Shown piece after piece: positions 18,071 to 64,000 of a stretch of DNA of 64,000 nucleotides (its first letter is position 1; each line of letters begins with the position of its first letter). The stretch is taken from the NCBI GenBank assembly GCA_025024175.1, contig QCXZ01000137.1, positions 76,756,680 to 76,820,679 of the forward strand, given 5' to 3'. The notes below the pieces were generated by a model that saw nothing but the letters and a program-made list of their open reading frames with translations, ran no database searches and was not told where the DNA came from. A program made the translations under genes and the position numbers. Origin of the DNA: Rhyzopertha dominica. Taxonomy: Eukaryota; Arthropoda; Insecta; Coleoptera; Bostrichidae.

Positions 18071-18071
18071 A

Positions 18072-18160
18072 TGTAGTATATAGGTTAATATTGGGATGGG
18101 GACATTAAAAGACATGTATGTATCTTTGCCGACGTTTCGAAGTCGTTTACATCTTTATCT
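18072..18160 (-). repeat. PLE terminal direct repeat, downstream copy
   Basis: About 88 bp starting TGTAGTATATAGGTTAATA and including GGATGGGGACATTAAAAGAC and GACGTTTCGAAGTCGTTTA. The same sequence in the same orientation is at 19166-19253. The pair brackets a minus-strand PLE RT fragment. On the minus strand it contains CTTCGAAACGTC, the right half of a PLE hammerhead; the left half (TGATAAAG) is degenerate. Confidence 0.75.
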
Positions 18161-19165
18161 TTACCACAATATCGGAAAGTCATTTGTACTTTTGAGATTA
18201 TTTTTAAGGTAATTTAAGAAAAGGTTAGCTAAAAAAGGTGAAAGAGGGTTTCCCATTGCCAATGCAAATTTCTGTTTACAAAATGTTTGATTAAATATAA
18301 ATGCGTTTTGTTCGATGCACAGTTTTGTTAGCTTCAAGCATTCGTCAATGACCGCTCTATCAAGTTTATTTTGTTCAAAAAAATCTTCCAAAAATTCTAA
18401 AGCTTGAGGTACTAGTACGCTATTGAACAGTGATTTGACATCAAAGGATATTAGTCTGTGATTAGGTTTAATATCAAAATCTTTTAATCTATTTATTAAA
18501 TCTATGGAATTTATGATCGAACAGTCACTATTTAACGTTAATTTACTGAATTCATTAGTCAACCACTTTGCTAATTTTTAATTTGGAGCGTTTACGGTTG
18601 AGACTAGCAGGCGATACTATTACCTGGCTTATGAATTTTTCGTAGAGCATAGCTTTTTGATATCAACGTATTTTTATTTTTAACTTGTATTTAAGATTAC
18701 TATTTACTAATAAACCGCAACTGTTCGAAGTATGATTAACCTCTTCTATAAATTTTTTAGTGGATTTTGCTTATTACATCATACGGACCGGTTTCTAACA
18801 TAGAAGTAATGTCATTGAAATAATCGTCTTTTTTAATAACTATGGAATTTCCCTTATCAGCTTTTACATAAAAACAACTCTTAACATTTAAACTTTTTAA
18901 AACATTTGTCTCTGAAGGAACTGCACATTGTCTTTGATATTTTTCATGAATTTTTTTTTGCTTTTTCTTCTCACTTCTGTTTTATTTTCTTCATTGAAAT
19001 TTACAATCACGTTTTCAATATCGAAAATTATGTATTCTAAAAGGAAATACTTTTGGTTTTACTGCATGTTTTAAGCCGTGTTTTAACAGATCAAGTTCAG
19101 TTATAGAAAATGAAACATTACTTTTATTTTGATTATGTTGTTCTTCGTCCCAGTTTTAAATTGTA
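18161..19165 (-). pseudogene. Penelope-like element: N-terminal region and RT up to motif B (minus strand)
   Basis: Going down from 19165, short pieces read QNKSNVSFSITELDLLKHGL and KPKVFPFRN (N-terminal region) with many stops. The 133-codon open stretch 18562-18161 holds RT: LKDFDIKPNHRLISFDVKSL (motif A, FDVKSLF), EQNKLDRAVIDECLKLTKLC, then FALAMGNPLSPFLANLFLNY (motif B, GxPLSPxLA). The RT stops right after motif B, where the terminal repeat begins, so the YVDD motif and the endonuclease are missing. The flanking direct repeats suggest a rearrangement or template switch that removed the 3' half. RT N-terminal pieces contain frameshifts. Inactive. Confidence 0.85.
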
Positions 19166-19253
19166 TGTAGTATATAGGTTAATAATGGGATGGGGACATT
19201 AAAAGACATGTATGTATCTTTGCTGACGTTTCGAAGTCGTTTATTTCTTTATC
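19166..19253 (-). repeat. PLE terminal direct repeat, upstream copy
   Basis: Matches 18072-18160 with a few differences (AATAATGGG against AATATTGGG, CTGACG against CCGACG). It continues into TTATTTCTTTATCAAG. On the minus strand this is the 5' border of the PLE piece. Confidence 0.75.
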
Positions 19254-20482: not shown

Positions 20483-22340
20483 TTTGGCTTTGCCAAAAAT
20501 AAAAATTGGAAGTAGGATAAAAACAAGTGTTTTATTATTATTATCATCCACATTATGCGTTTTATATTACTTCATGTATTGTTGCGAAGGAGTCAAACTA
20601 CAGATTTCACAGCTAGCGCCTCAACATATTCCAATAGTGAGAACTACCGCATTAAATGAAGCTTCGAACTAGGCTAAACTTAAAAACTGTATACGGGTCA
20701 CTTCAATCTTAGCACTACCTTTCGCCTAAGCCGAACGGGTAAGGAATATAAATGTAGCCGTGGCGAAATTAATTTCGACCGAAAACTCTTCCGAGCAAGT
20801 CACTCCATGAAAATAAATCGAGAGGACTCGAAGAGTTTAAAAATTAAAATCTCGAACAAACCCCAGATGATTCGCCGTACACTTCGGATCGTCTCGCCCC
20901 AGAAGCACCAAGACATAAATCTAAGAGACGGGAGGCTGCACAAGTAACACAGGACCTCTTTCACAGCTGCTCATTGTGGAAAATTAATGAACCCACCCTG
21001 CCCGACTCGTGTTTGTCGGCTGAGCATCGGGTGCGTGGATGAAGAATGGTTGGGTCGATTATAAACAAAAAGACGTCAATTTGTGCGCTGCAATAACACC
21101 CTGAGTGAAAAGCCCACGACCTGTCAGGAACCATTAATATCGATGGGAACGGAACTATCCATCTGGAAACAAATGCTGTGTACGTGGCCTGGAAGAATCA
21201 TGCAGGACGCGCGGGAAGGCTGGTTGCAGCTGACGTCTTAGTTAATGCACTTTGTTACTCTAGATAGTGACAATTAATCACTAAACATAAGTCGGTGAAA
21301 TATTTTGTGACTGAGTATTAGTTATCAAGAATTTAAGGAAAAAAACCATTAAAACAACTCTATTTTTGTTCAATAAAAATATTTCAAAGTAACATTATTT
21401 ATTTGAATTTTAAGTCATCCCGCACTCTGTTTTATTTCAAATGTCTCTTTACAAAGTTTTCCTAGCTGTGGGGCTTTGGCAATCTTCCTTCTCTGTACTT
21501 TTTCCAGCAGCATACATTTCTTTTTTTCCATTACATTTTCATTTGTTCAAGTTTCTTTTCCGTTTTCGCCTCTAACAATGTTTTCCTGTTCAACTGCATT
21601 ATTCTGTTGTCTTCATTGGTATATTCTGGAATCCCTTTTTCTGCATCTTCATCGGCTTCCTTCTCAGTCAACAAGTGATCCAATATTCTCCAATAATATT
21701 TCGCTTCACACAAGGGTATTCGTAAATTCATGAAGGTAGTCCACAGTAGTATAGATTGTATAGTCAGTAGAAAGCTACAGACATACATTATAAAGATACA
21801 AGAAGAATTCCAGTACACCGCAAGTGTCCATGTTCTACCCCTGGGTTAGATTGATGGCGGAAAGAACAAAAAGCTGCAGAAAGCAAAAAACACCACCACG
21901 GGATCTAACTAAATGTAAAAAAATGTAATTACTGAATAAGGCATGTATTATAGACGATATAAAAGAAGCACGTAGCGTTAAAAACATCAGCAGAAATAGC
22001 AAGAAGACCTACTGGCGGTGCAGGTGCAAATTTATAATTAACCATTAATCATATTCAGTCCGCAGATATCCTAGAGAGACTTTAGTTTCTGTTTACTGTC
22101 TGTAAAGTTGGTAACACACACTCGAAGCGTTTTTTCCTGCACGATTTATTGAAATTGGTATAAACTCTTTTTCATAACATTCACTGGTTTTATCTGAAAA
22201 AAAAGGACGGAGAATTTCTCCACAAAATGTGATAAACTTAGGCGAGACCGAGCGAAGCAGGTAATAAAAAATGACATTTACATTTTGGTTTGAAGGCTTC
22301 CGTGGTTGTTGTCGATGACATGTTGTTTTCCGGGCTGGTT
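20483..22340. other. No supported gene
   Basis: About 20690-21240 is GC-richer, single-copy in look and without long ORFs. ORFs at 21476-21733 and 21818-21531 overlap on opposite strands and have low-complexity composition. Nothing else was recognised. Confidence 0.3.
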
Positions 22341-22357
22341 CCTACGTTGGTTATTAG

Positions 22358-22400
22358 ACCTTGACGTTTCGACACTCATGTCGGTGTCTTCCTCAGAAGT
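22358..22400 (-). ncRNA. Hammerhead ribozyme motif, PLE type
   Basis: On the minus strand CTGAGGA (22396-22390) fits CUGANGA. A 5-bp helix II, GACAC pairing with GTGTC, closes the loop, followed by GAAA and then C-GUC with cleavage expected after GUC. ACTT before and AAGG after the core give a short helix I. The two-base-pair helix III is the form reported for Penelope-like elements. All core blocks match. Confidence 0.75.
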
Positions 22401-22420
22401 AGCTCTGAAACTGAAGTGTC

Positions 22421-23368
22421 CTAGCCTGCTCGGGTATTTATACTCGTCCGGGTCACTGACGTGTGGGCGTTGTTACGCATGACCGGTTTCCAGATTCCAG
22501 GTAGNTCGATGCCCCGGTCTCGATTGTAATTGTNCGGATTCTTCTGGATTTCCATGGCTTCCTTGTACAGTCTCGGCCAGAATCTCGCTTCCCTCGACAG
22601 CATTTGTGCTTCCTCGAATTTGATGATGTGGCCAGTCTCCATTCGATGTTCTGCTACAGCCGACCTATCACCTTGCCGGTCTCTGGTGTCCCTCATGTGC
22701 TCCTTGATTCTCGTGCTGATGTGCCTTCCGGTTTGGCCGATGTAAACCTTCCCACTGCTGCATGGGACGCTGTACACACCTTGTGTTTGTAGCTCCTCGG
22801 TCGTCGAACGATATTTCGGAAAGGCGTTAGCTATCTTTCTCGAGGCGGTGAAGATGGTGTTTATATGATGTCTTCTCAGCAGCCGTCCGATCTTATCTGT
22901 ACATCCATTGACGTAGGGCAGGTATGCCGCAGCGATATGCTCCTCTGGTTCCTTCTTCCGTGGTTGCTTGTTGATAGCCTTCTCAATCTGTGCCTTAGGA
23001 TATCCGTTATTCTGTAGTGCACTGCGTAGATGTTCTAATTCCTCTTCTAGATGGTCTAGTTCACTGACTAGCTTCGCCCGCTGTATCAGCGTGTTGTTGA
23101 CTCCTTGTTTTTGGGCGGGGTGGTGGTGTGAATCTGCAAGCAGGTAGCGATCCGTGTGGGTTGGCTTCCTATAGACCCGATGTCCTAGCGTGCCGTCTTG
23201 TTTCCTTGTCACCATCACATCCAGAAAGGGGAAGGCGCCGTTGGTCTCCATCTCCATCGTGAATTGTATGCCGTTATGGATGCTATTTAGATGGTCCAGG
23301 AACTCCTTTATGTTCTGTTCTCCATGCGGCCATACGTATAAACTAAAGGAAGCTCGTTGGTTGAACAT
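22421..23368 (-). CDS. Penelope-like element: RT C-terminus plus GIY-YIG endonuclease, long open frame
   Basis: A single 315-codon frame with only two N-containing codons. It begins within the RT just after motif C (LYVWPHGEQNIKEFLDHLNS), continues through FTMEMETNGAFPFLDVMVTR and HRVYRKPTHTDRYL, then a long helical connector. The nuclease follows: GVYSVPCSSGKVYIGQTGRH, STRIKEHMRDTRDRQGDRSA, VAEHRMETGHIIKF. This order is that of PLE proteins, where the RT copies RNA and the GIY-YIG nuclease nicks the target. The first residues up to about SFSL are outside sequence: the copy is 5' truncated near 23340, so the Met is not a real start. Its GC-richer codons and lack of stops mark it as the youngest PLE here. 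A hammerhead lies just 3' of the stop. Confidence 0.9.
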   Translation of the reverse strand: MFNQRASFSLYVWPHGEQNIKEFLDHLNSIHNGIQFTMEMETNGAFPFLDVMVTRKQDGTLGHRVYRKPTHTDRYLLADSHHHPAQKQGVNNTLIQRAKLVSELDHLEEELEHLRSALQNNGYPKAQIEKAINKQPRKKEPEEHIAAAYLPYVNGCTDKIGRLLRRHHINTIFTASRKIANAFPKYRSTTEELQTQGVYSVPCSSGKVYIGQTGRHISTRIKEHMRDTRDRQGDRSAVAEHRMETGHIIKFEEAQMLSREARFWPRLYKEAMEIQKNPXNYNRDRGIXLPGIWKPVMRNNAHTSVTRTSINTRAG

Positions 23369-23639
23369 GGAACGTCGTCGTTACTTTCATTCAGTAGTCT
23401 TATATCATAATATAGTTTTATACAAAATGCCTCAGTACCTATACAAATTAATAACTTTTAGAACGGACCTGCAACATGTCAACATCAGGAGGAAAAGTAT
23501 CATTACCGTCCCTCAGCTTTTCTCACAACATTCCCAAATTTTATAACAATTTAAAAACGCGTTTCAAATCTATGTCCCCGATTAACATAAAGAAGAAGTT
23601 GCGTGAATTTTTGCTTGAAAAGGTGTAACCGGAGCGAAC
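23369..23639. other. No recognised feature
   Basis: Unassigned sequence between the truncated PLE end and the LINE-like tail. Confidence 0.3.
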
Positions 23640-24769: not shown

Positions 24770-25845
24770 AACCCAGAAAGATCAAGAATTATTTGATGAC
24801 AAGGCGATTTAAATCATTTAAATGAAACAATAAATGAACTTTTAACATTCCTGTCAAATATAGAAAAAACTGAGCTAGAATATTGGGGACATTTGCATAG
24901 ATCAAAGTTATTTTACGTTCAATGACACCTTCTACAAACTAGACGATGGGCCGCCAATGAGTTCACCTTTGTTGCCAGCCTTGGCCGAAATTTTCATGTC
25001 AAATTTCGAAGAAAAGCTTTATGCAAAGAACAATGAAATTATTAAAAATGTATCATTCTGGACTAGATATGTTGATGATATTTATTGTATTTGGACGGGA
25101 ACTGACATGCAGTTGGATGTATTCTTAAAATTCTTAAATACAATAAATAAAATGACTCAATTTACCCTAGAAAAAGAAAAGGATGGAGTTCTTCATTTTA
25201 GTAAAATTGACTGAAATTTATAGAAAACCAACACAGTCAGATGTTATAATNCCGACTTCTTCAAATCAATCATTACAGATTAAGTATGCCGTGCTTTATA
25301 GTTTAATAAACAGACTAATAAATATACCTCTTAGAAAAAAAAGTTTCGAAAAAGAATTGACGACAATTAAACAAATAGCCTTTAACAGTGGATATGACAC
25401 AAAAATTGTGGACCAAATACTTAAAAAGCAATATAAAATTAGAATACAAAGAATGCTGTACAATGCTAACATCAATGAAAAAGAAAATATTTTTGCCGCA
25501 GTAAATTATGTCAAAGGAGTTAGTGTTTGTGTTAAAAATAGGCTGAATATACTCAGAATACAACCAATAAAACCAAATAAAATGCATGCAATGTGGCATG
25601 TTACACATAAGACAATCAGGTAGAGCTATTAAAAACAGAATTAAAGGACATGTTGAGAATATAAATTCAAACAAAAGCACAACAGGTTTTGCTGACGACT
25701 GCATAAGAAATAACCATCACTTAGATGAAAACGACGTCAAAGTTTTACATTGCGAAAGGAAAGGTAAAAAACTGAACATTTTAGAACTTTTGGAAATTAA
25801 AAAGCTAAGTATCAGAAGAAACATTTGGCAAATACACAAATAGAA
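24770..25845 (+). pseudogene. Penelope-like element family B, copy 1: RT and GIY-YIG
   Basis: The decayed 5' part (24770-24955) gives ICIDQSYFTFNDTFYK-like sequence. The RT then reads SSPLLPALAEIFMSNFEEKL (motif B; family G-S-P-L-S-P-x-L-A), FWTRYVDDIYCIW (motif C, YVDD intact) and TQFTLEKEKDGVLHF. After a frameshift at about 25210: TEIYRKPTQSDV, the connector, and AAVNYVKGVSVCVKNRLNIL. A second shift at about 25590 leads to CGMLHIRQSGRAIKNRIKGH, the GIY-YIG fold with the YIG replaced by HIR, then CIRNNHHLDENDVKVLHCER. Several shifts and one N make it inactive. A second copy of the family is at 54350-55280. Confidence 0.9.
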
Positions 25846-35742: not shown

Positions 35743-37006
35743 CAAGGCATGTTTTTTTAAGTAAGTACCGTTTTGGAATTAAAAAAAGACGTGCAAAGAT
35801 ATCGCAATAATTTTATCTTACATGAAAGCCTGTACCTTAATCTNCTTTTCTACATAATTTCCGTGAATATTGAGGCACTTGTCATAACGTGGCACCAGTT
35901 TTTGAATACCCTCCTCATAAAATTCTGCCGCCTGACTCGTTAACCACTGTATCACAAATGTTTCGACTTCGTTATCGTCTTGAAGACGCTGACCACCCAG
36001 GTGTTTCTTCAAGTGCAGGAACAAATGGTAGTCGCTGGGCGCCAGATCAGGGCTGTATGGAGGATGATCTAAAGTTTCCCATTTAAAAGATTTGATGAGA
36101 TTTTTGGTCCGATTAGCCACATGTGGACGGGCATTGTCATGCGGCAAAACGATACCCTTACTCAACTTGCCACGTCTTTTGTTCTGGATTGCACGACGCA
36201 GATTGTTCAATGTCTTACAATAAGACGCTGCATTGATTTTCTCATTACGAGGCAGAAACTCCACTAGCAATACTCCTTTTCCGTCCCAAAAAACTGTGCA
36301 CGTGATTTTCCGGGCAGAAATTGTTTGCTTAAACTTCACTTTTTTGGGTGATGATGAATGTCGCCATTCCATGGATTGTTGTTTCGATTCTAGTGTGACG
36401 TAGGCCACCCATGTTTCGTCACCAGTAACAATTTGGTCTAAAAAATCTTCACCTTCATTGTCATTTTCGGAACCCAACGTGAACACAATTTCCAGTAATT
36501 CAAGTTCTCGGTCACAATGCGATACAAAACACTACGAGAATATTGAGGAAAGCAGTCGCACAATGATGAAATTGTAAAGCGTCTGTTTTCTCTCACCTTT
36601 TCGTTCACTTTCTGCACCAAATCTTCATTAACGACCGAAGGACGCCCACTCCGTTCATCATGCACATTTGTGCGGCCATCTTTAAATGCTCTCACCCATT
36701 TCCTTACCATTCCATCACTCATAATGTTTTGTCCGTAAACTTCACAGATCTCACGATGAATATCGATCGGTTTTACGCCTTTAGCACTAAGAAATCGTAT
36801 AACAGCCCGTACTTCACAATCGGCGGGACTCAAGATTGTCGGAGGCATCTTAAACACTCAGTAAACAACGTATACAATGAAGAATCAAACTGTAATGGCG
36901 TCAGTGCGTAGACAAGAGATGTAGGTAACCAGCGCGCATGCGCGGAACGCCGACCGTAGCCCTGCGGCGGCGGAATCGCAAAACGCTACTTAAAAAACAT
37001 GCCTCG
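35743..37006. mobile_element. Mariner element, full length (1264 bp)
   Basis: The left end CAAGGCATGTTTTTTTAAGT and right-end complement CGAGGCATGTTTTTTAAGT form TIRs of about 25-30 bp. TA duplications are at 35741-35742 and 37007-37008. The length is typical of mariners. It carries an almost complete minus-strand transposase. It sits at the 3' end of the LINE at 34081-35742. Confidence 0.93.
35818..36857 (-). pseudogene. Mariner DD34D transposase, nearly complete, one frameshift/deletion
   Basis: The N-terminal frame (36857-36438) holds the bipartite HTH: CEVRAVIRFLSAKGVKPIDI, MSDGMVRKWVRAFKDGRTNV and DERSGRPSVV. The C-terminal frame (36486-35818) holds the catalytic domain: IVTGDETWVAYVTLESKQQS (first Asp), VLPHDNARPHVANRT (second Asp), then YSPDLAPSDYHLFLHLKKHL with the third Asp 34 residues after the second, the DD34D signature. 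The WVPHxL-type linker is changed to WVPKM and roughly 20-25 residues before GEDFLDQ are missing or out of frame near 36480. One N lies near the stop. The family cuts at TIRs and inserts at TA. With one junction defect this is the best-preserved transposase in the window. Confidence 0.93.
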
Positions 37007-44432: not shown

Positions 44433-44499
44433 TAAGTAAGAAATTATCTATCTGCAGTTGGTTGAGCTGTGGACAGCACAGCATAGACATGCATTTTAA
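44433..44499 (+). mobile_element. Short retrozyme-like insertion related to 61692-62378
   Basis: From 44446, TATCTATCTGCAGTTGGTTG followed by AG, then GGACAGCACAGCATAGACAT and GCATTTTAA, matches the hammerhead 3' strand and adjoining unit at 61975-62028. The copy ends at the same GCATTTTAA as the larger insertion. It starts with TAAGTAAGAAATTA, close to the inverted 5' start of the large copy. Flanks TGCAACAAATATTA (44419-44432) and TACAACAAATAATA (44500-44513) agree at 12 of 14 positions, consistent with an aged 14-bp target duplication. Confidence 0.65.
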
Positions 44500-44513
44500 T
44501 ACAACAAATAATA

Positions 44514-47500: not shown

Positions 47501-49018
47501 CATTCTCTCTCATCTCAATGGCAATAAACTACCCAGAGGTTGTTTTGCCGGGAGCCCGCGGTTAAAAACGTTCGGTCCCGGACTACGGGAGCGTTTATAA
47601 TAATAATTATTATTGCACGAGCTCATATAATAAAGGAAAGTAATTGCTGCTAGACAAAGCAAACAAATCGACTCGCATACCGTCCCAAGGCATACATTAT
47701 GCGTGTTTTATGGATAAGTTGCCGGGAAAAGTGTAGGTATCCTGCAGCTTCATGTTTACAAACCGGTGTTCTAGGTGATTTACGATTATTGCATATGAAA
47801 AGTACGTAATTTAAATTCACTATGTCAGTTATAGGTTCAGTTGACATTCAAAGGTTAGCGTTCGTTATTTGTTGCTTTATGAATAGCATGCAGACTTGCA
47901 AATGTCATTCTTGCTTAATTAACATTATGCGACAATTTAGCTATTTTACTTTGAAAATGCTTAGAAAGTCTACATGTTTGAATGCAAATCACCAATACGG
48001 AAGAACAGGCATTTGCTCCTTTAGCCGTCTTTGCAAATTTATGCAACACTCAATTTAGCATTCAACTCGGTAACAAATTGGGCTATCCTTGTACTACACG
48101 CTGGAGGCTGGGTAGTAACCAGCCTTAAAGATATTTTTGTAAGCAGACATGCAAATAATGTACTCTTCCTAGCGCTGGACAGCCTCGATTTCTATTTCTG
48201 TCGTATCCGAGGAGGCCAAGTCATGCCGGAGACCTTTGGCGATCCAAGGAGAATTTCAGGAAAATCTAATGTACGTGGCTGATCTTACTAATGCAGTGCT
48301 AAGACGTCTCAGTGCCTTAATTTAGGCCTGAAGGAGACATGCAGAGTACTAACAGCCAATAAAAGTTTTATTAGACTACGCATTTTTCAAATTTTTAACT
48401 CATAATAAAAATGCAGTTTTGAGTTCATTTTACTTAATTTCTTTCTTAGTTTTAATAAACTATTTAGTATGATTTTGCACTTGAGCTTAAGGGACTAGGT
48501 ATGTCATTTAAATATATCATTTAAAAACAATTTGGTGTAGTATCTAACTAATTTAATCATAGCATAGCGACCGCAGTGAATATGCCACATGAACCAGAGT
48601 GTTTTAAATGTTTCACATTTGACTATATTAACTTCAATATAGTTGTATGTGCAGCAAGATTTACCATCTTGAGTGTTGCAGATCAAAGAAAAATAAAATT
48701 GATGATCTTGAGAACGAGAACGTTATGTGGATATACATTAATACAAGTATTGCGGAGCAGTATTTTCGATCTACTTAGGTCCTTGAAAAGTACAGTTATA
48801 AATTGTCAGGACATGGTTGTTAAACAAGTAGAAACTACACTTTTGTAAAATGGGACGTTCTCATTTTCNTAAGAATTAATTGCTGTTAACGTTTACGAAC
48901 AAAATAGTTAAGTAAGTACAATGCATAATAAAGATGCATGTTTGTGCTAGGCTGTCTGCAGCACAAACAACTGCAGACTAATCTGTTATGCTTTCGTTAA
49001 AGCTCCGCAGTGTAGTTT
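44514..49018. other. Long AT-rich stretch without supported gene
   Basis: About 44820-45290 is GC-richer and unique-looking. 45500-47250 is very AT-rich with no ORF of note. About 47470-47650 and 48000-48300 are mixed composition with motif-less ORFs (for example 48031-48282). Nothing assigned. Confidence 0.3.
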
Positions 49019-49800
49019 ATACAGAGTGTCACAAAATTAGCGTGCAACAATAAATCACCGATTCTCTGACTAAAAAAAAAAAGATTTTTTTATATAAACA
49101 TAGCCCTGTAAATGCTTGGTTTTTGTGATACAAGGTGACACTGCGTCATAAAGCCTACAACTTTTTCTTATTCTTTGGAAAAACTACTTTGTAGCTTAGA
49201 CATCACTATCAGTTAAACTGAAACACTTTTTTCTAGCTTTTGCCAAGACTTATACAGATGAACTTTCGGTAATTTCACCTAACTGTCTTATCCTATCATT
49301 CAAAATAAACAAAAATTGTACTTATTTTTCACGTGTTTAAAATGTACCACTCCGTCAGAAAATAAGAACAAAGATTTATGCTACTTATCATCAAGTAGGG
49401 ATAATAATAGGCCGTAATGAGACAAAAGCTTATTTACTTAATTATCTGTCACATAGAAAACAAGTTTCTTTGGCGATTTTTTCATTATTTGAAGTATTTC
49501 TATATCGTGATATCGTGATAGTGACGATGACGTACTTTGAAAACTTCATTTTTAACTTCGAAAATCATGAATGGTTTTACGAATAGCGAGCTAGCNCACA
49601 TATACTTTATTTATGTATTGTACAATGGAAGGACGTTAGGTGCTCAAAGAGAACATCCAAACAGAAGGTAGCCAGGAAGGCGAATGTTTTCTACAATACA
49701 TAGAAATCTGATGGAAATAGGATCTTTAAAAGACCACAAACAAATTTTAATTTGGAAAATGCTGTAAATCATTTTAAAAACGATCCTAGAGCGAGCCTGA
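49019..49800 (+). pseudogene. 5' end of a mariner-like transposon with transposase N-terminus
   Basis: TACAGAGTGTCACAAAATTAG at 49020 looks like a terminal repeat. Downstream (49600-49800) broken frames give TLGAQREHPNRR, RRMFSTIHRNLMEIGSLKDH and ENAVNHFKNDPRASLRTVKR-type sequence, the DUF4817-like HTH of insect mariner-like transposases. The sequence then switches abruptly to the minus strand of a related copy at about 49800, so the catalytic part of this copy is gone. Confidence 0.6.
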
Positions 49801-61677: not shown

Positions 61678-61691
61678 AAGTATAGTAGTAA
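61678..61691 (+). repeat. Target-site duplication, left
   Basis: AAGTATAGTAGTAA, identical to 62379-62392 on the far side of the retrozyme insertion. Confidence 0.85.
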
Positions 61692-61917
61692 GTAAGAATT
61701 TAGGATGGCAATGCCATCTGTCAGCATTACACTGACATGATGACAAAGCCACCTAGCTACCTTAACGGGTACTACTTCCTAAAGGAAGTGACCTGTAGCC
61801 TAACAAATTGGCATGCAACTGCATACTTCAATTTGACAGCAGGCCCCCAGGCACTTCCTAAATTCTTACTTACATCATACCATTGCTTTGGTATATAAGC
61901 AAAACCAGTTCTATGGC

Positions 61918-62007
61918 GTGCTGTCTACACTAGACCTAAACTGCACTGATGAGCTGTAATGACAGCGAAATAGATCTATCTGCAGTTGGTTGAGGTGTAG
62001 ACAGCAC
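61918..62007 (+). ncRNA. Type I hammerhead ribozyme, complete
   Basis: Outer helix I: GTGCTGTCTACAC (61918-61930) with GTGTAGACAGCAC (61995-62007), 13 perfect pairs. Internal loops are 61931-61938 and 61988-61994. Inner helix I: AACTGCA (61939-61945) with TGCAGTT (61981-61987), 7 perfect pairs. Core CTGATGA (61946-61952). Helix II GCTGT/ACAGC with loop AATG. Core GAAA (61967-61970). Helix III is a self-complementary TAGATCTA, so only about 3 pairs with a GATC loop form in a single molecule. The cleavage triplet AUC puts the cut after 61980. Every conserved residue is present. Confidence 0.9.
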
Positions 62008-62269
62008 AGCATAGACATGCATTTTAATGTATGTCGGTTTTTGCCCGCTAGCAAAAAGTGCCATGGGGGCCTGCTGTCAAATTGAAGTATGCAGTGGCAT
62101 GCCAATTTGTCAGGCTACAGGTCACTTCCTTTAGGAAGTAGTACCCGTTAAGGCAGCTAGGTGGCTTTGTCGTCATGTCAGTGTAATGCTGACAGATGGC
62201 ATTGCCATCCTAAATTCTTACTTACATCATACCATTGCTTTGGTATATAAGCAAAACCAGTTCTATGCC

Positions 62270-62359
62270 GTGCTGTCTACACTAGACCTAAACTGCACTG
62301 ATGAGCTGTAATGNCAGCGAATTAGATCTATCTGCAGTTGGTTGAGGTGTAGACAGCAC
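62270..62359 (+). ncRNA. Type I hammerhead ribozyme, second unit (one core change)
   Basis: Same fold as 61918-62007 displaced by 352. Differences inside the motif are an N at 62314 in helix II and GAAT instead of GAAA at 62319-62322. The changed base normally pairs with the U next to the cleavage site, so this copy is probably weak or inactive. The cut would follow 62332. Confidence 0.85.
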
Positions 62360-62378
62360 AGCATAGATATGCATTTTA

Positions 62379-62392
62379 AAGTATAGTAGTAA
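62379..62392 (+). repeat. Target-site duplication, right
   Basis: AAGTATAGTAGTAA, the exact partner of 61678-61691. Confidence 0.85.
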
Positions 62393-62639: not shown

Positions 62640-64000
62640 CATACAGTAGCTAATAGGCATACAGGCCAACTGGGACAAAGGAATGCTGGAAGAAGCTTTA
62701 AACCTCATCAAACAAGGATAATCTCAATGGTACGTTGAGCAAAGGTATGGTATGCCGAAACCACATAAAAACTCAAAGGACGAAAACTGGGTAGGCATAC
62801 AGTGTTTATCACACTCGGGGAGAAAAGTTACAAAGTTGGCCAACAAAGGTTCTCCACTTACATGAGTTACTAAGAATATCTGTGTATACATATGTGGAAG
62901 AAAATAAATTTCAACACCGTTTCAACCAAGAAACCAAACTTGCCGGTAGAAAATGGTTAAAAGTTTTTTTGGAAGAATCATCTGAAAATTTTCAAACGTC
63001 CTATCTGTTAAAAGAGAAAAACGACTGCATTTAATTTCCCAGGAGTATACAGAAAATACCACCATCGTAGTATGCGCTAATGCCTCCGTTATTGTATTCA
63101 AGGGCAAATAATGAAAGCCACGTATTCAGATGGTTTACCTACTGGCTCAATGGTCATGATGCCCCCAAAGGAAACATGACAATAGAAACATTCACTAAAT
63201 GGCTCGATCACTTTGTCGCCTCCACCTGCAGCTTTAATTTTTGATGTTGTTAAATGCCATTTAGATATTACAACTGCCAAGAGAGCAGAAGAATATGGGA
63301 TCCACATGTTTGCCTAGCAACATAACGCATGAACTGCAGCTTATGAATAAGGAAGTTTTAAGGACATATGAATCATTTTGGGATAAAGAATTGATGAAAT
63401 ACTGGGATATACATCCTACTAGAGATTCAAACCGAGAGAGATTTTCGGATATTTTTACACCAACGTGGGAAAAGACGATGATAATATCAAAATGGTTAAC
63501 GGAATTCGAGTTACAGGTATTTGCCCTTACGAAAGAGATATTCTTCTATCTGAGGCATTTGCTTCTAGCCTGCCAACTAGCTAGCTAAAACGAATCTATA
63601 CTCTTACTGATTCTGAATGTGATTCAGATGATCATCTAGTGTTAAGTGCCTTGCAGCAAAAACTATTTCTCGGAAGTATTACTCACACCATATTTGGTAA
63701 AATAGAAATCTGTTCAAAAGCTACCAATTATAAAGCTATAGAGGTCAAACATGCTGTGTTTTCGAATGACAATTTTTAGACCGCAGTATCTTCGATTTCG
63801 GCCACTTTCAACCCAAAAATTAGAGAAGCTTCCACATCTTCTCCTGGTAGCATGGTGCCTACAAGTTCTTCCACGAAGTAAAATGGTTATGTGTGATTTG
63901 TGACAGAAGTACGTGGCGGATATGAGGAGATGCGACCAATATGGGTGGTATGAGAAGTGTGCAGGGTTAACTGCCGAAGATGCAGATCCTTTTCTGTGCC
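62640..64000 (+). pseudogene. Pogo-like (DDE_1 superfamily) transposase relic with C-terminal zinc-finger remnant, cut by window end
   Basis: Translation with frame breaks gives NWDKGMLEEALNLIKQG (psq-type HTH, 62660), FNQETKLAGRKWLKVFLEES (CENP-B/Tc5-type HTH, 62920), TENTTIVVCANASVIVF (63050), then ATYSDGLPTGSMVMM and PKGNMTIETFTKWLDHF (63117-63215). IFDVVKCHLDITTAKRAEEY (63236-63295) carries a catalytic Asp, and LPSNITHELQLMNKEVLRTY (63308 on) matches LPxxTTHELQPxDK with the last Asp changed to Asn. IRVTGICPYERDILLSEAFA ends the DDE region. Near 63890-64000 WLCVICD, RRCDQYG and a later CAGLTAEDADPF recall a PHD-like Cys finger found at the C-terminus of some insect pogo proteins. Frameshifts, stops and the Asn make it inactive. 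Confidence 0.8.

Follow-up and report, generated by a model that had tools for sequence, protein, structure and literature searches.

Two-armed insertions of a hammerhead retrozyme family in Rhyzopertha dominica suggest Penelope-type reverse transcription of a circular template

Organisation of the locus

The DNA analysed here (hereafter the window) is a stretch of 64,000 nucleotides from the beetle Rhyzopertha dominica (contig QCXZ01000137.1, positions 76,756,680 to 76,820,679 of the forward strand). Near its right end lies an element with a 687-bp body, enclosed by 14-bp target duplications (window positions 61678-62392), which consists of two head-to-head arms and not of a plain tandem. Its features, together with the related and Penelope-like sequences of the window, are listed in Table 1, where u1 (61981) is the first base past the predicted ribozyme cut and u352 (62332) the last base of the unit. 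The 352-nt unit has a GC content of 44%, and no frame of 110 amino acids or more is present among the open reading frames listed at 61692-62378.

Table 1. Features of the retrozyme locus and of related and Penelope-like sequences in the window
Feature	Position	Strand	Remarks
PLE2, second, older Penelope-like family	18071-19253		89-bp direct repeat around reverse transcriptase fragment
PLE1, 3' part of Penelope-like element	22286..23380	-	endonuclease end of frame; GAAACGTC motif 22363-22370; site 1 ~22316; site 2 22286
Third Penelope-type reverse transcriptase-like frame	24879-25623		Pfam RVT_1, E 3e-4, below cut-off
Further fragment, same retrozyme family	44446..44500	+	short, ends at site A (u48)
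Older degenerate relative of the retrozyme	48924..49019	-	76% over 97 columns, end near site A
Left target site duplication	61678..61691	.	AAGTATAGTAGTAA
Inverted arm, partial unit without ribozyme	61692..61856	-	outer end site B (~u241), inner end u76
Direct arm	61857..62378	+	u229-352, full unit u1-352, then u1-46; outer end site A
Hammerhead copy 1, type I, complete core	61918..62007	+	predicted cut 61980|61981
352-nt unit u1-u352	61981..62332	+	predicted monomer RNA
Hammerhead copy 2, type I, damaged	62270..62359	+	predicted cut 62332|62333
Right target site duplication	62379..62392	.	

A sequence-only reading of the window had described the element as tandem 352-bp units, each with a full hammerhead. 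The two hammerhead-like folds do lie exactly 352 bp apart, the direct units are about 97% identical (172 of 177 positions) and the 14-bp target duplication is exact. The tandem description holds for about one and a half direct units, but one arm is inverted: the stretch 61692-61856 holds part of a unit in inverted orientation, 97% identical to the reverse complement of 62056-62225. Similarly, the core is complete in hammerhead copy 1 but damaged in copy 2.

Hammerhead ribozyme motifs

The fold of copy 1 was recovered as previously described: CUGAUGA, GAAA and the UAUC triplet are all present, helix I has 13 + 7 perfect pairs and helix II is 5 bp long. In copy 2, GAAT replaces GAAA and one N is present. 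The Rfam model HH9 scored 29.0 bits (E 1.9e-4) on copy 1 and 21.8 bits (E 0.04) on copy 2, its gathering score being 52, and an Rfam scan of the window returned nothing at or above the gathering score. The sequence-only reading had named a covariance-model score below threshold as evidence against itself, and on that point the result goes against it. Since the Rfam score stays below gathering, the ribozyme call is based on the complete core and the repeat family. A strict hammerhead descriptor matched once in the whole window (both strands) and never in 100 dinucleotide shuffles, and hence the fold is more than a chance occurrence. All 12 tested core positions are kept in 166 of the 181 family units covering the core; an exact core match was not found in IMG/VR.

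Helix III (61970-61979, u342-351) is a 10-base palindrome, AUAGAUCUAU, which permits either closure as a short hairpin or pairing with a second molecule. A double change, A346T + T347A, is carried by 44 of 78 insertions and turns it into AUAGUACUAU, which is still palindromic; the two changes always occur together, except in one unit of locus L106. Retention of the palindrome is what ribozymes working as dimers would need. As the double change looks like one inherited event, it gives only a hint that dimer pairing of helix III may be kept in the family.

Genome survey and selection of insertions

The surveyed genome comprises 479 Mb in 138 contigs. With the window unit as query, at least 119 genome matches were obtained (40 of 2220 first-look candidates scored), and with a second unit at least 179 (40 of 1674 candidates scored). 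The other genome copies that the earlier reading had asked for thus exist as a dispersed family. Together with the type I hammerhead with short helix III, the 352-nt unit and target duplications longer than 4 bp, this bears out the retrozyme assignment, and by its sequence features the window element represents a new family within the known animal (non-LTR) retrozymes.

Altogether, 77 loci were read, of which 75 were usable; they gave 78 match groups, equal to 75 insertions once split ones were rejoined. The insertions read are the best-scoring copies, among which complete and young ones are over-represented. Duplicates (L007, L042 and L043), loci in which the match touches the locus end (L100 and L105) and groups with fewer than 150 aligned bases were left out. 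The counts of concordance, arm lengths and inner ends given below use the automatic grouping of 78. Rejoining was done post hoc and was aimed mainly at exceptions, namely L016 and L094 (one-armed with duplications) and L095, L022, L002, L021 and L107 (split or rule-breaking); hence both the automatic and the corrected tallies are given.

Insertion ends and target duplications

An arm has its outer end, on the 3' side of its RNA, at one of two unit positions. Where duplications are present (44 insertions), copying ends with a base at u40-49 for site A, in 33 of the 44 at u44-47, and with a base at u238-245 for site B; the duplications are 9-15 bp long with a median of 13. The automatic tally gives 53 two-armed head-to-head insertions, comprising 46 A/B, three B/B, no A/A and four with one undefined end. 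Duplications of at least 9 bp are found in 44 of the 46 A/B insertions vs none of the seven other two-armed ones (Fisher 2e-7), and when flanks were swapped between insertions as a control, 4 of 311 passed. The 25 one-armed insertions of this tally (13 A, 11 B and one undefined) include four with duplications.

After rejoining, L002, L016, L022, L094 and L095 are resolved as one A/B insertion each, the duplications being 12-14 bp long. The corrected tally thus has 55 two-armed insertions, of which 51 are A/B (49 with duplications), one B/B and three undefined, duplications being present in none of the four that are not A/B; among the 20 one-armed insertions two carry duplications and 18 do not. 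The remaining exceptions are L039 (B/B) and L021, L086 and L107 (undefined end), wider reading of L021 and L107 having left their end assignment unchanged. Since a free choice of A or B by each arm would give about half A/A or B/B, the end choice of the two arms is coupled.

The duplications overlap with the RNA by a mean of 2.2 nt at A and 1.4 nt at B (0.7 and 0.5 nt for swapped duplications), a weak excess that is partly a product of how the duplication borders are drawn. Where the arms meet, a 2-4 nt overlap is seen in 28 of the 53 two-armed insertions. Inner ends recur near u140, u172-175 and u219-228, and the same head-to-head junctions are repeated in unrelated insertions (u251/u140 in L005 and L026; u223/u172 in L002 and L009), as if the cDNA had preferred places in the RNA to stop or join. 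Non-retrozyme filler occurs between the arms of single insertions (L095:779-882) and, in L022, between the joined parts.

Unit concordance and the nature of the template

Arms range from 24 to 1441 nt and are longer than one unit in 32 of 46 A arms and 31 of 46 B arms. For the seven transversion variants present in at least five insertions, agreement is 98% between laps of one arm and 98% across both arms of an insertion, vs 52% between insertions. Transitions are less concordant (0.90 and 0.89 within a locus vs 0.46 between insertions), and an initial run, covering 42 groups and every variant present in at least four, gave 0.63 and 0.70 vs 0.13. The variant T222A is carried by five of five units read in L084 and by four of four in both L026 and L093, in the latter two across both arms, and by one of three units in L038. 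Private transversions at sites covered at least three times (n = 93) are confined to one unit in 80 cases, shared by all units in nine and by some units in four; being mostly single-unit changes, they indicate that the loci have not been homogenised since insertion.

After alignment extension, 4 of 131 inner ends lie at u352/1/2 (p 0.026). An apparent pile of inner ends at u1 (9 of 131, p 8e-8), which ribozyme run-off would have explained, proved to be an artefact of alignments split at the unit border. Five further inner ends lie at u348 and may be due to the T347A variant in those copies. Inner ends thus show no clustering at the ribozyme cut, where they would be expected with cut linear monomers as the usual template. 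Arms of several laps with a single sequence would be most simply accounted for by an RNA circle, which we infer from the anatomy of the insertions.

A genomic unit of L004, treated as a circle, folds to -142.9 kcal/mol, compared with a mean of -95.9 for 200 shuffles (z -8.0), and hence has strong self-pairing. In the predicted structure, site A falls on a hairpin loop and site B within a 16-base unpaired stretch; by predicted accessibility the windows at A rank 19-69 and those at B 6-54 of 352, neither being the most unpaired.

Penelope-like elements of the genome

The PLE1 family has at least 126 genome matches (125 of 12538 candidates scored). Its copies end at two sites 30 nt apart, located 47 nt (site 1) and 77 nt (site 2) past GAAACGTC, a motif which we take to be the end of its minimal hammerhead; an Rfam search of PLE1 gave no hammerhead up to E 10. 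All 12 two-armed insertions that could be resolved combine an arm ending at site 1 (within 3 nt) with an arm ending at site 2, and 11 of them have duplications of 12-16 bp (median 13), L048 being without one. This set derives from nine opposite-facing pairs among the 126 listed matches, eight of which were resolved (not L070/L071), and four more insertions from L044-L055. Read by itself, L050 shows site 2 at both ends; the wider reading of this insertion (L056/L057), with site 1 and site 2, was used.

In the open frame of L054, Pfam assigns with confidence only a reverse transcriptase domain. The homologues listed for this frame include an Anolis carolinensis protein with 46% identity (P0027), P0034 with PF01541, the GIY-YIG domain, and P0068, named a GIY-YIG endonuclease; from these homologues and by eye, PLE1 probably carries a GIY-YIG endonuclease. 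In their longest matches the PLE1 loci are 96-99% identical to L045 or L050, and the retrozyme units are mostly 94-98% identical to the window unit, which indicates that both families are young. Comparison of the retrozyme with PLE1 revealed no shared sequence beyond chance (best E 0.33) and no common tail motif.

The Penelope families compared were PLE1 and, in part, PLE2, which has at least 43 genome matches (40 of 79 candidates scored), several of them as opposite-facing pairs. PLE2 (L074-L083) was considered as a partner on account of a repeat with ACATG and TTTTAATGT like site A, and was rejected as its copies end elsewhere, about 60 and about 100 nt beyond its GAAACGTC and away from the site-A-like stretch; they are also more diverged, and the likeness to site A is probably due to chance.

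Proposed mechanism

We consider it probable that an RNA circle of the retrozyme is reverse-transcribed by Penelope-type machinery with one start site per target strand. A transcript of the 352-nt non-coding repeat would be cut by the type I hammerhead into unit-length RNA, which would be ligated to a circle and serve as the insertion template. Transcription, ribozyme cutting and circle ligation are reported for other animal retrozymes (PMC7229834). A Penelope-type reverse transcriptase-endonuclease would break both target strands, and 3' overhangs of about 13 nt are suggested by the duplications together with the two primed ends. One overhang would then prime cDNA at A (the hairpin loop region, u43-47) and the other at B (u238-245); the pairing of A with B is shown by the insertions, from which we infer the commitment of each strand to one site. 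Each cDNA would be of variable length, often more than one lap, and the two cDNA ends would be joined head to head, often via 2-4 shared nt. The expected product would carry a duplication of 9-15 bp and hold several nearly identical units in two inverted arms, whose outer ends lie at A and B; the end rule, the duplications and the unit concordance are observed here. One-armed copies without a duplication could represent a failed second start.

For the Penelope enzyme of Anolis, cutting and extension of both strands are reported, with internal starts at two adjacent, tail-matching sites (PMC11167929). In the same assay top and bottom strands showed no difference in start site, which fits poorly with a strict rule of one site per strand, and the ribozyme was dispensable in vitro, ribozyme mutants leaving insertion unchanged (PMC11167929). 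The paired end sites and 13-bp median duplications common to PLE1 and the retrozyme speak for a Penelope link, as does the position of PLE1 site 1, 47 nt past its GAAACGTC; the lack of shared sequence beyond chance and the spacing of the sites (30 nt in PLE1 vs about 197 nt in the retrozyme) speak against it. A broader proposal, for which our confidence falls just short of even, regards the retrozymes of animals as satellites of Penelope-like elements: one ribozyme-made circle would be held by a dimer of the Penelope enzyme, with each broken strand committed to A or B, and the insertion would be a coupled pair of multi-lap cDNAs made by two-sided target-primed reverse transcription.

Alternative explanations

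The most serious rival, which we nevertheless regard as unlikely, retains two-sided Penelope-type priming but places it on an uncut linear multimer from a fresh homogeneous locus, the ribozyme having no role in insertion. Such a multimer could equally yield concordant units; sources of this kind exist, as 18 of 78 insertions contain at least four same-strand segments, and the indifference of in vitro insertion to ribozyme mutants (PMC11167929) is in its favour. However, units collect private changes, as the 80 of 93 confined to one unit illustrate, and a linear template would pass these on as differences between laps, yet the inherited transversions are concordant as given above. The conservation of the tested core positions in most family units is likewise at odds with a ribozyme without a role.

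The remaining rivals concern the origin of the two arms. Self-priming by a single folded-back cDNA or antisense transcript agrees with the recurrent inner ends and has been proposed for palindromic head-to-head Penelope junctions (PMC3846280), but it predicts A/A or B/B insertions, whereas 46 of 53 are A/B and none A/A; it is thus already disfavoured and appears very improbable. A comparably small probability is assigned to a LINE-type enzyme with twin priming, from which inverted insertions with target duplications also arise (PMC2837659). Both retrozyme ends are fixed and coupled, unlike the L1 pattern. In L1 twin priming one end is fixed and the one internal start is scattered. A DNA transposon or MITE bounded by terminal inverted repeats, carrying a hammerhead-like motif by chance, would have inverted outer parts and target duplications on both sides as seen here, but its ends would not be different unit positions, nor would its duplications vary from 9 to 15 bp. 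Such an element, which the sequence-only reading had named as speaking against itself, is excluded by the variable arms, the inner ends and duplication lengths being variable as well, and its probability is negligible. Reverse transcription of a circle with coupled starts at A and B is the preferred reading.

Relation to known elements

The family resembles the animal non-LTR retrozymes (Cervera and de la Pena 2020, PMC7229834) in its type I hammerhead, a unit within 170-400 nt of low GC, the occurrence of dimers to multimers, the lack of LTRs and of coding capacity, duplications longer than 4 bp and the co-existence of Penelope-like elements. Those retrozymes are described as direct tandem repeats, whereas two-armed insertions with two coupled ends prevail among the copies read here; a term search of the available text of PMC7229834 gave neither 'inverted' nor 'head-to-head', and a literature search covering few subscription papers returned no two-armed, two-site rule for retrozymes. 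The repeats are stated to show no motif betraying the machinery used (PMC7761336).

With Penelope-like elements (PMC3846280, PMC11167929) the retrozyme shares head-to-head arms, two alternative 3' ends, target duplications, a tail on one arm, partial tandems and, ahead of the start site, a ribozyme motif; Penelope elements with inverted pLTRs, one arm of which bears a tail, have been described (PMC3846280). The differences are that Penelope-like elements encode their enzyme, which the retrozyme does not, that their end sites are about 30 nt apart and not about 197 nt, and that the duplications are 8-10 bp in A. vaga Penelope-like elements (PMC3846280, PMC11167929) compared with the median of 13 here. 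Plant LTR retrozymes are likewise non-autonomous with hammerhead-processed circular RNA (PMC4918200), the circle being putative in the present family, but they have type III hammerheads, LTRs, a primer binding site, 4-bp duplications and Gypsy machinery (PMC7229834, PMC7761336).

The anatomy of DNA insertions thus connects a family of retrozymes with a Penelope-type signature and provides genomic evidence for a template acting like a single-sequence circle, and the coupled two-site rule can be checked in the genomes of other animals as well as with the in vitro Penelope system already established.

Other transposable element remnants in the window

Fragments of a mariner-like transposase (Pfam Transposase_1) occur at 35818-36857, and a degenerate stretch beside the retrozyme, at 62660-63560, resembles by eye a pogo/CENP-B-type transposase.
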